A DNA stretch of 64,000 bases from Nevskiales bacterium (GCA_028698335.1 JAQVDP010000010.1:62001-126000); one strand, 5' to 3'; counted from the stretch's first letter, positions 27,077 to 32,150 are shown. The notes: a model not told the origin generated them from the letters alone. Made by a program: numbers and translations.

Positions 27077-27550
27077 ATGCTCAAGCGATTCGCCGCTGTA
27101 TGCCTTGCCCTGATCGGACTGCCGGTCTGGGCCGCCGATCCATTCCCGCCCCCCGAGGTTCTCGCGCACTATTCCGGCAAGGTCGTCTACGTCGACTTCT
27201 GGGCCTCCTGGTGCGCCCCCTGTGCCGAGTCGTTTCCGTGGCTGAACACGCTGCAGGCGAAGTTCGGCCCCAATCTGGTCGTCGTCGGCGTCAACGTTGA
27301 CGAGGACCCGGCGGATGCCGACGCCTTCCTGCACCGGCGCCCGGCATCGTTCGACATCGTCCGCGATCCGAAGGGCGAGATCGCCGCCCGGTACAACATT
27401 CCCGGCATGCCGACCTCGCTGCTGCTCGACGCGGAGGGCCACGTGATTCACCGGCACTCCGGATTCCGGCGCAACGAGATTCCCGAATACGAGGCCGCGA
27501 TCAGCCGCGCCCTGAACACCCCCCATCCCGCACAAGGATCTCAGCCATGA
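27077..27550 (+). CDS. Periplasmic TlpA/ResA-like thioredoxin
   Basis: A 157-residue exported thiol oxidoreductase: signal peptide (residues 1-19), then YVDFWASWCAPCAESFPWL with C46 and C49, and the cis-Pro loop IPGMPTSLLLD. The TlpA/ResA layout with WCAPC suggests a reductant for heme or metal-site cysteines, or for a partner protein. Strong GGAGGA ribosome-binding site. First gene of a run with DUF4266, DUF3570, ApbE and DsbD-like genes; its TGA overlaps the next ATG as ATGA. The DsbD-family protein four genes on would supply electrons. Confidence 0.92.
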   Translation: MLKRFAAVCLALIGLPVWAADPFPPPEVLAHYSGKVVYVDFWASWCAPCAESFPWLNTLQAKFGPNLVVVGVNVDEDPADADAFLHRRPASFDIVRDPKGEIAARYNIPGMPTSLLLDAEGHVIHRHSGFRRNEIPEYEAAISRALNTPHPAQGSQP

Positions 27551-27768
27551 AGATGCGGTATCCCATCGCAGCGTTGCTGGTCGCGACGCTGCTCGGCGGC
27601 TGCAGCAGCTGGGGCGCCAAGCCCTGGCAGCGCGGCGCGCTGGCACGCCCGGACATGCAGCTCGACGCCGATCCGGTCCAGGCCGGACTCGATGACCACA
27701 TCTACTTCAGCAAGGAAGCCTCCAGCGGCGGTCGTGGCTTCGGCGGCGGAGGCTGCGGATGCAACTGA
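27547..27768 (+). CDS. DUF4266 small lipoprotein ending in GGGGCGCN
   Basis: A 73-residue lipoprotein: signal with lipobox LLGGC (Cys at about residue 19), then PWQRGALARPDM, HIYFSKEASSGG and a terminal GFGGGGCGCN. These are the hallmarks of DUF4266. The last residues hold two Cys in a Gly-rich flexible tail, which would be a natural substrate for the thioredoxin or a site for a cofactor or modification; that is inference. Coupled to thioredoxin by an ATGA overlap and to DUF3570 by a 10-base overlap. Confidence 0.88.
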   Translation: MKMRYPIAALLVATLLGGCSSWGAKPWQRGALARPDMQLDADPVQAGLDDHIYFSKEASSGGRGFGGGGCGCN

Positions 27769-29069
27769 ACGACAAACGCCGCGCCCTGAGCGCGGCCACG
27801 CTGACCCTGCTTGGCGGCGCCCCGGCCGCCGGCCACGCGTCGGTGCTCGACGGCAACGGCAACTGGGACATCGACACCGCGGTCCTCGTGTACTCGGAAA
27901 GCGACAGCCGCGTGCAGCTGGTCGAGCCGGTGATCAAGGGCACGCTCAACCTCGGTGGCGAGCGCTATCTGACCACCAAGCTGGTGCTCGACACCCTTAC
28001 CGGCGCCTCGCCCAACGGCGCGACGCCGGCGTCGCATCCGCAGACCTTCACCGGCCCGTCGGGTGGCAGCAACTACACCGTCGCCGCCTTCGAGACACCG
28101 CTGGATGACACCTTCAAGGACACCCGCGTGCAGGGCTCGGTCGACTACCTGTTCCCGACCTCGCCCAACGGCAAGCTGGGCTTCGGCCTCAACGCTTCGA
28201 GCGAATACGACTTCCTTTCGGTCGGCGCCAACGCCCGCTATGCCCACGATTTCTTCCAGCACAACACCACGCTGAGCGCGGGCGTGAGCTTCGAGTCCGA
28301 CCAGATCGATCCGGTCGGCGGCGCACCGGTTGCACTGTCGATCATGCCGCCCAACGCCGGTGACGGCGAGCAGGAGGAGGACGACCAGGAAGGCCGCGAG
28401 CGCAGCAGCTCGGAGAGCAAGACCGTCACCGACCTGATCGTCGGCTGGACCCAGGTGATCAGCCCGCGCAGCCTGATGCAGGTGAACTACTCGCTGTCGG
28501 TGGCCAGCGGCTACCAGACCGATCCGTACAAGCTGCTGTCGGTCGTCGGCAGCGACGGCGAACCCCTGCGGTACATCTACGAGGGGCGCCCGGACAGCCG
28601 CAACAAACAGGCGCTGTACGGACGCTACAAGCGGCTGATGTTCGATCGCGACGTGTTCGACATCTCCTACCGCTTCATGACCGACGACTGGGGCATCGAT
28701 TCGCACACGGTGGACCTGACCTATCGCTGGTATTTCAGCCAGAACCACTACCTGGAACCGCATCTGCGCTGGTATAACCAGACGGCGGCCGACTTCTACC
28801 ACGTCGCGCTGTACGACGGTCAGGAGACACAGGTCGACTACGCCAGCGCCGACCCACGCCTGAGCGAACTCGATGGCATGACGCTCGGCCTCAAGGTCGG
28901 CAGCGCATGGCGCAACAGCGGCAACTGGAGTGCGCGGCTTGAGCTCTACCAGCAGCAGTACCAGGACACCGGCATCCCCCCCGAAGCGGCGCAGGGATTG
29001 TCGAAGTTCGACCTGCAGCCGGATCTGACCGCAGTGATGCTGACCCTGGGTTACCGCTTCAAGTGGTGA
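27759..29069 (+). CDS. DUF3570 outer-membrane beta-barrel protein
   Basis: A 436-residue exported protein with signal ending near HASV, then strand-rich sequence, an acidic loop (EQEEDDQEGRERSSSESK, about residues 205-222) and many aromatic beta-strands (LMQVNYSLSVASGYQTDPYKLLSV, RYIYEGRPDSRNKQALYGRYKR). It closes with LTLGYRFKW, an outer-membrane C-terminal signature. This combination is DUF3570. GGAGG lies before ATG 27759. The family travels with DUF4266 and ApbE; its function is unknown, possibly an outer-membrane conduit or receptor. Confidence 0.88.
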   Translation: MQLNDKRRALSAATLTLLGGAPAAGHASVLDGNGNWDIDTAVLVYSESDSRVQLVEPVIKGTLNLGGERYLTTKLVLDTLTGASPNGATPASHPQTFTGPSGGSNYTVAAFETPLDDTFKDTRVQGSVDYLFPTSPNGKLGFGLNASSEYDFLSVGANARYAHDFFQHNTTLSAGVSFESDQIDPVGGAPVALSIMPPNAGDGEQEEDDQEGRERSSSESKTVTDLIVGWTQVISPRSLMQVNYSLSVASGYQTDPYKLLSVVGSDGEPLRYIYEGRPDSRNKQALYGRYKRLMFDRDVFDISYRFMTDDWGIDSHTVDLTYRWYFSQNHYLEPHLRWYNQTAADFYHVALYDGQETQVDYASADPRLSELDGMTLGLKVGSAWRNSGNWSARLELYQQQYQDTGIPPEAAQGLSKFDLQPDLTAVMLTLGYRFKW

Positions 29070-29956
29070 AACCGCGACCGATCAGCGTGGACGCCGCCAG
29101 CGGCGGCGTCCACGTCGGTCGGTTCGACGCCATGGCCTCGCCCTGCGAGGTCCTGATCGCGGGTGCCCCGGCCGACCGGATCGAGGCGCTGGTGACGGCC
29201 GCCGCCGATGAGGTCTGGCGGATCGAGCGGCACTGGAGCCGCTACCTCGACGACAACGTCGTCCATCGCATCAACACCGCCAACGGGCAACCGGTCGAGG
29301 TCGACGCCGAGACCGCGCGCTTCCTCGACTACGCGGCGCAGCTGCACACGCTCAGCGACGGCCTGTTCGACGTCACCAGCGGCGTGCTGCGCAGAATCTG
29401 GCGCTTCGACGGCTCCGACCGCATCCCGACGCAGGCCCAGATCGACGCCGTCCTGCCGCTGGTGGGCTGGCACCGCGTCCGCTGGCAGAACCCGGTCCTG
29501 CAGATGCCGGCGGGCATGGAAATCGACTTCGGCGGCATCGGCAAGGAATACGCCGTCGACCGTGCCCTGCAGACGGTCCGTGCCCACACCGACGCCGCGG
29601 TCCTGGTCAATTGCGGCGGTGACCTGGCTGCCAGCGGACCCCGTCCGGACGGCACGCCGTGGCGGGTCGGCGTGCAGATCGCCGGAGCCGAATCTCCGCC
29701 CGTGCTCGCGCTGGACCATGGCGGCCTGGCGTCCAGCGGCGACGCGCACCGCTACCTCCTCAAGGACGGGATACGCTACCCTCACGTCCTCGATCCGCGC
29801 AGTGGGCGCCCCGTGGTGGGCGCGCCGCGGACCGTAACCGTCCGCGCCGCCAGCTGCACCGAGGCCGGCGTACTGTCGACGCTGGCCCTGCTGCATGGCG
29901 CCGACGCCCAGGATTACCTGAAGCAAAACGACGCCGTTGCCTGGATCTGGTGGTGA
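29066..29956 (+). CDS. apbE: FAD:protein FMN transferase (ApbE)
   Basis: A 296-residue flavin transferase that attaches FMN through a phosphoester bond to Ser/Thr of target proteins outside the cytoplasm. Key elements: FDAMASPCEVLI, DVTSGVLRRIW, IDFGGIGKEYAVDRA, NCGGDLAASG and SSGDAHRYLL...HVLDPRSGRPV, the FAD/Mg site region. The start is GTG 29066 (GTG 29063 possible), overlapping the DUF3570 stop as GTGA. It has no obvious signal peptide or lipobox, so export is unproven for this copy. No D-x-x-(S/T)-x-x-(S/T) type substrate motif was recognised in its neighbours. Confidence 0.92.
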   Translation: MKPRPISVDAASGGVHVGRFDAMASPCEVLIAGAPADRIEALVTAAADEVWRIERHWSRYLDDNVVHRINTANGQPVEVDAETARFLDYAAQLHTLSDGLFDVTSGVLRRIWRFDGSDRIPTQAQIDAVLPLVGWHRVRWQNPVLQMPAGMEIDFGGIGKEYAVDRALQTVRAHTDAAVLVNCGGDLAASGPRPDGTPWRVGVQIAGAESPPVLALDHGGLASSGDAHRYLLKDGIRYPHVLDPRSGRPVVGAPRTVTVRAASCTEAGVLSTLALLHGADAQDYLKQNDAVAWIWW

Positions 29957-30006
29957 ACCCAACCGGGACACGGCGGTCTACCTTCATCATCTCCGACACC
30001 AATACG

Positions 30007-32109
30007 ATGATTCATCGCTCTCGTTTCCTGTCCGCCCTCCAGGCGGTGCTGCCGGCGGTCGCGTTGACCGTGTGCGGCCTGCTTCCCACCGCCGCCCGCG
30101 CCGAACCGGTCAGCACCCCGGAAGTCGAAGCCGAGCTGATCGCCGACAGTACCGCGCTGCACCCCGGCACCAACTGGGTCGCGCTGCGCCTGCTGCCGCA
30201 ACCGGGCTGGCACGTGTACTGGGAGAACCCCGGCGACTCCGGCATCCCGACCAAACTGGTCTGGACCCTGCCCGACGGCGTCAGCGCCGGCGACATCCGC
30301 TGGCCCTACCCGCATCGCGAATCGCTGGGCGACCTGACCAACTACGGCTACAGCCAGGAAACCCTGCACCTGGTGCCGATCCGGATCGATCAGACCGTCA
30401 CCGGCGGCCCGCTGACCCTCGCCGCCCGCGCCAGCTGGCTGGCGTGCAAGGACATCTGCGTGCCCGGCAAGGTCGACCTGCAGCTGACGCTGCCGCTCGC
30501 CGACGAAGCGACCGCCGATCCGGTCTGGGCCCCGATCTTCGACGCGACGCGCGCGCGCCTGCCGCGCTCCGGCCGCGAATGGCCGGCCCGGTTCGAGGTG
30601 GCCGACGGCTCGATTTCGCTGAGCGTCGAAAGCGCCGAACTCGACGGCGCCGACGACATCCAGTTCTTCCCCTACGCCAACGATCTGGTCCGGCATGCGG
30701 CACCGCAGCGCCTCGCGGCCGACGGCAGCCACCTGCGCCTGAGCCAGGACCTGTCGGAGTATTTCGTGCTCGCGCCCGAGCAGGTCGAGGGCGTGCTGGT
30801 CGTCACCAAGGGGCAGCAGACGCGCGCATGGGAAATCCGCGCCGAGCCCGGCACCGTCCCGCCCGTCGCCGAGCCGGCGGTCCAGGCCCCGCCCGCGCAG
30901 CTGCCGGCGTCGGCACCGGCGGCCGCGGCGCCGCCCGCGTTCGTGGCGGTCCTGCTGTTCGCGCTGCTCGGCGGGCTGATCCTGAACCTGATGCCCTGCG
31001 TGTTTCCGGTGCTGTCGCTCAAGGCGCTGTCACTGGTCAAGTCCGGCGACGGCGCCGAACGCCGGCGTCAGACCTACGCGTATTCGGCCGGCGTGATCGC
31101 ATCCTGCGTCGTCGTCGCCGCCGCCATGATCGGCCTGCGCGGCGCCGGCGAGGCCATCGGCTGGGGCTTCCAGCTGCAGTCCCCGGTGTTCGTGGGCGCG
31201 CTGGCCTACGTGATGTTCGCACTGGGCCTGTCGCTGTCCGGTGTCGCCCAGTTCGGCATGGGCCTGATGAACCTCGGCGGCGGCCTCGCCCAGAAGCCGG
31301 GGCTGACCGGGTCGTTCTTCACCGGCGTGCTCGCCGTCGTCGTCGCCAGCCCCTGCACCGCGCCGTTCATGGGCAGCGCGATGGGCTACGCGATGACCCA
31401 GCCGGCATATGTGGCATTGACCGTGTTCGCGACGCTCGGCCTGGGCCTGGCGCTGCCATTCCTGCTGATCGGCTGGTTCCCGCGCCTGGCGGCGTTGCTG
31501 CCCAGACCCGGCGCGTGGATGGAGACGTTCAAGCAGGTCATGGCGTTCCCGCTGTATCTGACCGTGGTCTGGCTGCTGTGGGTACTGCTGCGCCAGACCG
31601 ATCCGCAGATGCTGTCGCGGGTCATGGTCGGCCTGGTGCTGGTGGCCTTCGCGCTGTGGCTGTGGAACCGCAGCGGTCCATTGGCGGCGACACTGAAACT
31701 GGGCGCGCTCAGCGGTGCCGTGGCGCTGCTGTTCGTGGCGCCCGTCGCCGGGATCGGCGCGCATGCCTCGACCGCCTACACCACCGAGTCCTGGTCGACG
31801 CAACGCGTCGCCGAGCTGCGCGCCGAGGGGCGGACGATCTTCGTCGACTTCACCGCCGACTGGTGCCTGTCATGCAAGGTCAACGAGCGCATCGCGTTGC
31901 GCTCGGACCGCGTCGCTCAGGCGTTCCACGACAATGACGTTGCGGTGCTGGTCGGCGACTGGACCCGCTCCGATCCGGCGATCACCGAGGAACTGGCCCG
32001 CTTCGGCCGCAACGGCGTGCCCCTGTATCTGGTCTATCGCAACGGTCAGGACGCCGAGGTGCTGCCGCAGCTGCTGACGCCCGACATCGTGATCGACGCC
32101 CTGCAGTAG
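30007..32109 (+). CDS. DsbD-family transmembrane thiol:disulfide reductase (ScsB-like)
   Basis: A 700-residue protein carrying electrons from cytoplasmic thioredoxin to periplasmic thiol partners. The signal peptide (1-31) is followed by the alpha domain with C147-K-D-I-C151, the membrane beta domain with MPCVFPV (C331) and SPCTAPF (C450), about eight spans, and a C-terminal thioredoxin gamma domain WCLSCK (C620, C623). The acidic/Ala-rich linker ends near residue 310. The N-terminal DsbC-like domain resembles ScsB more than classic DsbD. It is the last gene of the thioredoxin-DUF4266-DUF3570-ApbE run, 50 bases after apbE. Confidence 0.93.
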   Translation: MIHRSRFLSALQAVLPAVALTVCGLLPTAARAEPVSTPEVEAELIADSTALHPGTNWVALRLLPQPGWHVYWENPGDSGIPTKLVWTLPDGVSAGDIRWPYPHRESLGDLTNYGYSQETLHLVPIRIDQTVTGGPLTLAARASWLACKDICVPGKVDLQLTLPLADEATADPVWAPIFDATRARLPRSGREWPARFEVADGSISLSVESAELDGADDIQFFPYANDLVRHAAPQRLAADGSHLRLSQDLSEYFVLAPEQVEGVLVVTKGQQTRAWEIRAEPGTVPPVAEPAVQAPPAQLPASAPAAAAPPAFVAVLLFALLGGLILNLMPCVFPVLSLKALSLVKSGDGAERRRQTYAYSAGVIASCVVVAAAMIGLRGAGEAIGWGFQLQSPVFVGALAYVMFALGLSLSGVAQFGMGLMNLGGGLAQKPGLTGSFFTGVLAVVVASPCTAPFMGSAMGYAMTQPAYVALTVFATLGLGLALPFLLIGWFPRLAALLPRPGAWMETFKQVMAFPLYLTVVWLLWVLLRQTDPQMLSRVMVGLVLVAFALWLWNRSGPLAATLKLGALSGAVALLFVAPVAGIGAHASTAYTTESWSTQRVAELRAEGRTIFVDFTADWCLSCKVNERIALRSDRVAQAFHDNDVAVLVGDWTRSDPAITEELARFGRNGVPLYLVYRNGQDAEVLPQLLTPDIVIDALQ

Positions 32110-32119
32110 GCCCGGCGCC

Positions 32120-32150
32120 GGGTTGCGGCGTGCCCCGCACGCCGCAACCC
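32120..32150. terminator. Strong hairpin between convergent genes
   Basis: A 14-base-pair perfect stem (32120-32133 with 32137-32150) and a 3-base loop sit between the dsbD-like stop at 32109 and the symporter stop at 32153. No U-tract; likely a two-sided boundary or a 3'-end stabiliser. Confidence 0.6.

Follow-up and report, generated by a model that had tools for sequence, protein, structure and literature searches.

The closest described relatives of the operon analysed here are the DsbD-type gene clusters with ApbE catalogued by Meheust et al. (2021, eLife; PMC8238504), which feature DUF3570 (227), thioredoxin-like proteins (183) and DUF4266 proteins with a C-terminal CXC (221), and whose function was called uncertain. 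In the same study, the cognate ApbE attached flavin to the DUF3570 protein of Chlorobium luteolum, and Ser-to-Ala changes in two [ST]GA[ST] motifs abolished flavinylation. Our operon occupies positions 27077 to 32109 of a 64,000-nucleotide stretch of DNA from a Nevskiales bacterium (GCA_028698335.1, JAQVDP010000010.1:62001-126000), the whole of which we call the window. By gene content it is an ordinary member of this catalogued, functionally open system, with ApbE beside DUF3570, a thioredoxin-like gene, a DUF4266 CXC (here CGCN), DsbD and an [ST]GA[ST] site; that study likewise proposed that DsbD passes electrons to a thioredoxin/flavin hybrid. The gene set and the proven DUF3570 target are thus already known from PMC8238504. 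What is new here, and all of it computed, is a barrel model that positions the acceptor Ser84, a putative relay from a CGC tail to a cysteine-free barrel, a clade of signal-less ApbE proteins and a set of recurrent neighbours. Overall, we consider the chances evenly balanced that the system is a thiol-fed, haem-free device for electron delivery to a flavin barrel at the cell surface, a reading whose direction and acceptor are inferred.

Two differences set the window apart from the published description: its thioredoxin is Redoxin/TlpA-like whereas the paper cites PF13899, and its DUF3570 has one canonical site whereas two are reported (PMC8238504). The portions of that paper's main text considered here do not describe a predicted extracellular site, a cysteine-free barrel, a thioredoxin-DUF4266 fusion or a signal-less ApbE clade. 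It is the only one among the papers searched to mention DUF3570 or DUF4266, and it matches the mention, in an earlier sequence-only reading of this DNA, of a survey that noted ApbE-DUF3570-DUF4266 linkage with no defined function. A 2024 structural survey in mSystems covers, in the part considered, FMN-bind, NqrB/RnfD, DUF2271, Flavodoxin_4 and FMN_red, not DUF3570.

The sequence-only reading had placed five plus-strand genes here, overlapping by 4, 10 and 4 bases and with a final gap of 50, and this layout holds, as do, by Pfam, all of its family assignments. Its supposition that the linkage is not random is borne out far beyond chance. In an even sample of 229 genomes across the class (gammaproteobacteria), DUF3570 is present in all 55 genomes carrying DUF4266 as against 5 of the 174 others (Fisher p about 1e-47), and 75 of 77 DUF4266 genes have a DUF3570 gene on the same strand at most 3 kb away; 60 of the 229 genomes, about a quarter, carry DUF3570. 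A second set of loci is biased, having been gathered with a DUF3570 query, and includes three duplicates from the same genomes. Upstream of DUF3570 in its 104 members with enough upstream DNA are found thioredoxin (96), DUF4266 (103), the CGC (102) and WCxxC (95), and an adjacent ApbE is present in 72 of the 75 loci with enough downstream DNA. The conserved unit is the four genes thioredoxin-DUF4266-DUF3570-ApbE. The sequence-only reading had suggested counting the linkage of all five families across genomes; DsbD proves a common yet optional partner, linked in 13 of the 52 loci that have some 8 kb of flanking DNA on either side and in 18 of 80 loci overall. DsbD is optional in the published catalogue too, where 316 clusters lack it (PMC8238504).

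Which protein carries the flavin? The sequence-only reading saw no obvious target and allowed for a new ApbE substrate, an idea that is ruled out, because DUF3570 is a known target (PMC8238504) and the window protein (27759..29069; Pfam 1.1e-126) has the site. DUF4266 is excluded as a target as well: it contains no [ST]GA[ST], its conserved features being YFSKEA and CGC. The single site of the window DUF3570, LTGAS at residues 80-84, lies within the motif D78-TLTGAS-PNGA88 (27990..28022), identified from aligned DUF3570 proteins and the published sites (PMC8238504). The acceptor column holds Ser in 72 and Thr in 6 of the 78 aligned sequences, and Gly82 is invariant in all 78. Judged by this alignment and the published experiment, ApbE would almost certainly attach flavin mononucleotide (FMN) to the predicted acceptor Ser84 (28008-28010). 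We refer to such proteins with a single canonical motif as type A. Type B proteins are shorter and have two motifs (SGASPW...SGAS), of which the second (SGAS) aligns with LDDT, conserved in type A. The window's own genome has a second cassette, of type B (L114, G000:C35:134000-142500), which comprises thioredoxin, DUF4266 and a two-site DUF3570 with no adjacent ApbE; a lone signal-less, type-B-like ApbE on another contig (L001, G000:C31) groups with the type B ApbEs. Type C designates divergent DUF3570 proteins in larger clusters, with a secreted ApbE in all six loci where ApbE was identified.

An AlphaFold model of the window DUF3570 built on 78 sequences (predicted local distance difference test 90.1, predicted template modelling score 0.86) has 16 long strands (36-47, 52-66, 69-85 ... 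423-435) and the features of antiparallel 16-strand porin-like outer-membrane barrels. It fits porins and other outer-membrane proteins over its full length (Foldseek, VIA-align; OmpG Z 16.8, CymA 17.8, PorB 16.0), in support of the barrel expected by the sequence-only reading, and no PDB relative was found by sequence. With both termini taken as periplasmic, alternate turns of the predicted barrel all have 2-4 residues and every long loop is on the opposite, outer side, which places Ser84 at the outward end of strand 3. Conservation is concentrated on this side: of the 45 positions with the highest conservation, 37 belong to extracellular loops or outer half-strands (37/263), against 4 for the periplasmic side (4/138; Fisher p 2e-4), and the leader has the other 4. 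A type B model has the same topology, and both of its acceptor serines flank loop 2, at the same end as in type A. We envision, from the model, that the folded barrel would probably hold Ser84 in a conserved vestibule, where strand 3 meets the cell exterior; that the conserved residues would lie near the flavin we infer from topology.

The location of ApbE bears on when the flavin is attached. The window ApbE (29066..29956, starting at the GTG at 29066 or 29063; Pfam 4.7e-65) has neither signal peptide nor lipobox and does not qualify as a secreted or lipidated, extracytosolic ApbE. A start-codon error as the cause is ruled out by the lack of any ATG, GTG or TTG upstream in the open frame and of a hydrophobic stretch. 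No convincing signal peptide or lipobox was found in 95 cassette ApbEs by a crude leader measure, on which DUF4266 scores strongly and DUF3570 moderately but which overlooks many thioredoxin leaders; in the few ApbEs with a higher hydrophobicity score, the stretch responsible lies where the catalytic domain begins or depends on an improbable upstream start. The envelope redox operon of the sequence-only reading is supported, though calling it periplasmic obscures its ApbE, which is not evidently periplasmic. In the ApbE tree (the root being drawn at the midpoint), a single group with support 100/99 unites the type A and type B proteins with the solitary L001-like ones, apart from lipoprotein ApbEs, DUF2271-type ApbEs and type C ApbEs.

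Because ApbE lacks an export signal, the flavin is probably attached before export, and because an extracellular loop would be beyond the reach of any ApbE after insertion, modification would have to precede assembly in either case if the topology is right. We envision that the still unfolded precursor would receive FMN in the cytosol and then undergo Sec export and barrel assembly, a sequence of events that we hold to be reasonably likely on the basis of these sequences. C. luteolum DUF3570 without its signal peptide was still flavinylated in Escherichia coli while mostly in the pellet (PMC8238504), so that a folded, membrane-inserted barrel is not required. Export of a flavin-bearing chain is plausible by analogy with proOmpA, which has been reported to be translocated with a cross-linked loop (PMC6028853). 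Tat export of the loaded protein was also considered and ruled out, because the leaders have no conserved twin arginine and the window's KRR is not a general feature. Alternatively, DUF3570 may be loaded conventionally in the periplasm, either by an ApbE exported along a non-classical route or by the exported ApbE that the host also encodes (C25). ApbE systems are usually periplasmic (PMC12052999), and exported ApbEs occur in the divergent type C cassettes. However, a dedicated ApbE lies adjacent in nearly all loci with enough downstream DNA, the cassette ApbEs form one strongly supported clade with no convincing signal peptide in any, and a cytosolic ApbE is known to serve a cytosolic target, fumarate reductase (PMC12052999). 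We consider periplasmic loading unlikely; it concerns the compartment of attachment, and the relay discussed below could hold in either case.

How might electrons reach the flavin? The mature barrel is free of cysteine in 105 of 109 DUF3570 proteins, so that thiols cannot pass electrons to a barrel disulfide. DUF4266 (27547..27768; Pfam 2.1e-23, lipobox LLGGC), correctly predicted to be a small lipoprotein, ends in a glycine-rich tail (...GGGGCGCN) with the CGC dithiol at 27754-27762; the GGGCGCN tail is conserved among relatives. Upstream lies the secreted thioredoxin-like protein of the TlpA/ResA/Redoxin type (27077..27550; Pfam Redoxin/AhpC-TSA 1.7e-17), with the redox pair Cys46-Cys49 (WCAPC, 27212-27223) and best NCBIfam matches to ResA, TlpA and DsbE, all under the cut-offs of those models. 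In two genomes (L023, L051) thioredoxin and DUF4266 are fused in one open frame. Cysteine-free barrel, CGC tail and fusion together suggest, by analogy, a relay from thioredoxin through the CGC to FMN. Erv and QSOX enzymes have the same order, a thioredoxin CxxC, a flexible CxC-type shuttle and a flavin (PMC3509050, PMC12561257). This is a functional analogy and not homology: no Erv/ALR domain, and thus no Erv fold, is among the Pfam matches of the five proteins, and the cassette consists of three separate proteins, with covalent FMN on an outer-membrane barrel and a probably reductive direction.

The fifth gene (30007..32109) encodes a DsbD-family transmembrane thiol electron transporter with DsbD_N (1.9e-18), DsbD_TM (4e-17) and a C-terminal WCLSC thioredoxin domain (Thioredoxin_7, 1.7e-16). 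It is not a canonical DsbD (NCBIfam NF001419, 105.9 bits against a cut-off of 330), and its N-terminal domain is closest to PDB entry 6c29, a 'putative metal resistance protein' (phmmer 6c29_A 6.4e-11). We take 6c29 to be ScsB, and on that assumption the window protein shares the domains of the ScsB/DsbD thiol reductases and a ScsB-like N-terminus. No other DsbD_TM match occurs in this genome, so the protein may have additional clients. The thiol route from the cytoplasm through the DsbD-like protein to the thioredoxin, put forward in the sequence-only reading, is supported, the linked DsbD genes of relatives (13 of 52 loci) pointing to the electron source. Electrons from cytosolic thioredoxin would reach the periplasmic thioredoxin through either the DsbD/ScsB-like protein or a general cellular DsbD encoded elsewhere, and would go on to the CGC tail of DUF4266 and, via its glycine-rich arm, to FMN; we lean slightly towards this route.

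What the reduced flavin would act on is the weakest step. The likeliest cell-surface acceptor would be Fe(III), whose reduction would feed Fe(II) uptake, although we regard iron as the acceptor only tentatively. VIT1 occurs in 25 flavinylation clusters (PMC8238504), and the related FtrABCD transporter uses Fe2+ only (PMC11966278). FTR1-like permease and/or cupredoxin genes, as in ferrous iron uptake of the FtrABCD/EfeU type, adjoin the cassette in 9 of the 52 fully flanked loci, mainly in Alteromonadales and Cellvibrionaceae, and not in the window. A regulator/sensor-kinase pair is near the cassette in 15 of the 52, a count restricted to such pairs because response regulators cluster generically; one clustering of neighbouring open reading frames used longest-frame calling and may contain spurious members.

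Mtr-type porin-cytochrome conduits carry electrons across the outer membrane by means of a barrel and its redox partners. The barrel and redox partners of the cassette are likewise placed, with flavin and thiols and no haem, a likeness of arrangement. Conceivably, the cassette forms a haem-free line across the outer membrane in which cytosolic ApbE loads the barrel precursor and the CGC arm feeds the surface FMN through the barrel, for reduction of external Fe(III) or another acceptor; we consider this full scheme doubtful.

Several points weigh against thiol-fed delivery to a surface flavin. Iron genes accompany the cassette at some loci only, mainly in the two groups just named, and none is beside the window operon. 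The thioredoxin-DUF4266 fusion probably arose only once, because the ApbEs of L023 and L051 group together. Lack of a signal peptide is not unique to DUF3570 cassettes, since some DUF2271-type ApbEs share it, and type C keeps a secreted ApbE, so that cytosolic flavinylation is no general need of DUF3570. Finally, the orientation of the barrel rests on outer-membrane protein conventions and on a predicted model.

Two other functions would reuse the same parts. The CGC tail might bind Fe, Cu or Zn and be kept reduced by thioredoxin and DsbD, with a barrel that passes or reduces metals and a flavin that serves as the metal reductase group, without a long relay. The conserved GGGCGCN tail, the iron genes near some relatives and the resemblance of the DsbD N-terminus to the 'putative metal resistance protein' 6c29 would suit such a role; however, two cysteines make a weak metal site, the DUF4266 tails listed contain no conserved His or third Cys, and the thioredoxin fusion favours thiol exchange, so that we find metal handling rather improbable. 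Least probable of all is the thiol oxidase direction, in which the flavin would pass electrons from DUF4266 and thioredoxin to O2 as a QSOX/Erv-like envelope oxidase or a peroxide source: the group order (thioredoxin CxxC, shuttle CxC, flavin) is that of QSOX, many host genera appear, from general knowledge of their lifestyle, to be aerobic marine bacteria and most loci lack DsbD, but DsbD, a reductive pump, is the commonest linked thiol partner, the thioredoxin is of the reductive TlpA/ResA type and FTR1/cupredoxin neighbours suit reduction.

Further observations concern the parts of the system and their surroundings. The leader of DUF3570 (27759-27840 in the window, and in relatives) shows more conservation than signal peptides usually do, with L10, A13 and L17 of ..LsAATxxLLG.. 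and often a Cys, and the type B leader is similar (LTAAALALPG); it might be a docking sequence for ApbE or a targeting signal. The stop of DUF4266 and the start of DUF3570 overlap at 27759-27768 (ATGCAACTGA), and, when the tails are read with any stop codon, some 70 of the 92 type A loci retain this ATGCAAYT overlap, which ties the CGCN terminus to the MQL start. Between the end of the operon and a convergent sodium/solute symporter gene, an inverted repeat at 32121-32149 (GGTTGCGGCGTGC-CCC-GCACGCCGCAACC), perfect-looking by eye, is likely a shared transcription stop; a promoter scan found nothing. The type C loci L153, L154, L156, L157 and L160 also have thioredoxin, DUF4266, a secreted ApbE and a pair of small outer-membrane barrels, of which one carries an SH3 domain. 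Type C clusters also encode a protein of 880-990 residues in which an HZS_alpha domain (hydrazine synthase alpha middle domain) is accompanied by CxxCH motifs (for example L156); they are possibly a haem-linked version of the same system. A secreted family of about 235 residues with no Pfam match (VVDKVYHPYVLxxERELEWRxxSRQ) recurs beside the cassette with FTR1, cupredoxin or two-component genes (L034, L050, L054, L056, L065, L067, L069, L073, L074, L080 and L083). In a relative, a DUF2271/DUF4198/ApbE/flavodoxin-like cluster (L136) contains an ApbE without signal peptide though DUF2271 members are extracytosolic, and the ApbEs that group with it are signal-less as well.

The anatomy described here makes an 'unknown electron transfer' testable at three points: the location of the flavin, the compartment of its attachment, and the CGC as the link between thiols and flavin. 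A haem-free line across the outer membrane, if true, would have no thiol-driven precedent among outer-membrane electron conduits, and DUF3570 would apparently be the first exported protein flavinylated before export, as far as our literature search went. Bacteria with this cassette would then need no cytochromes to bring electrons to their surface, and might do so to gain iron.

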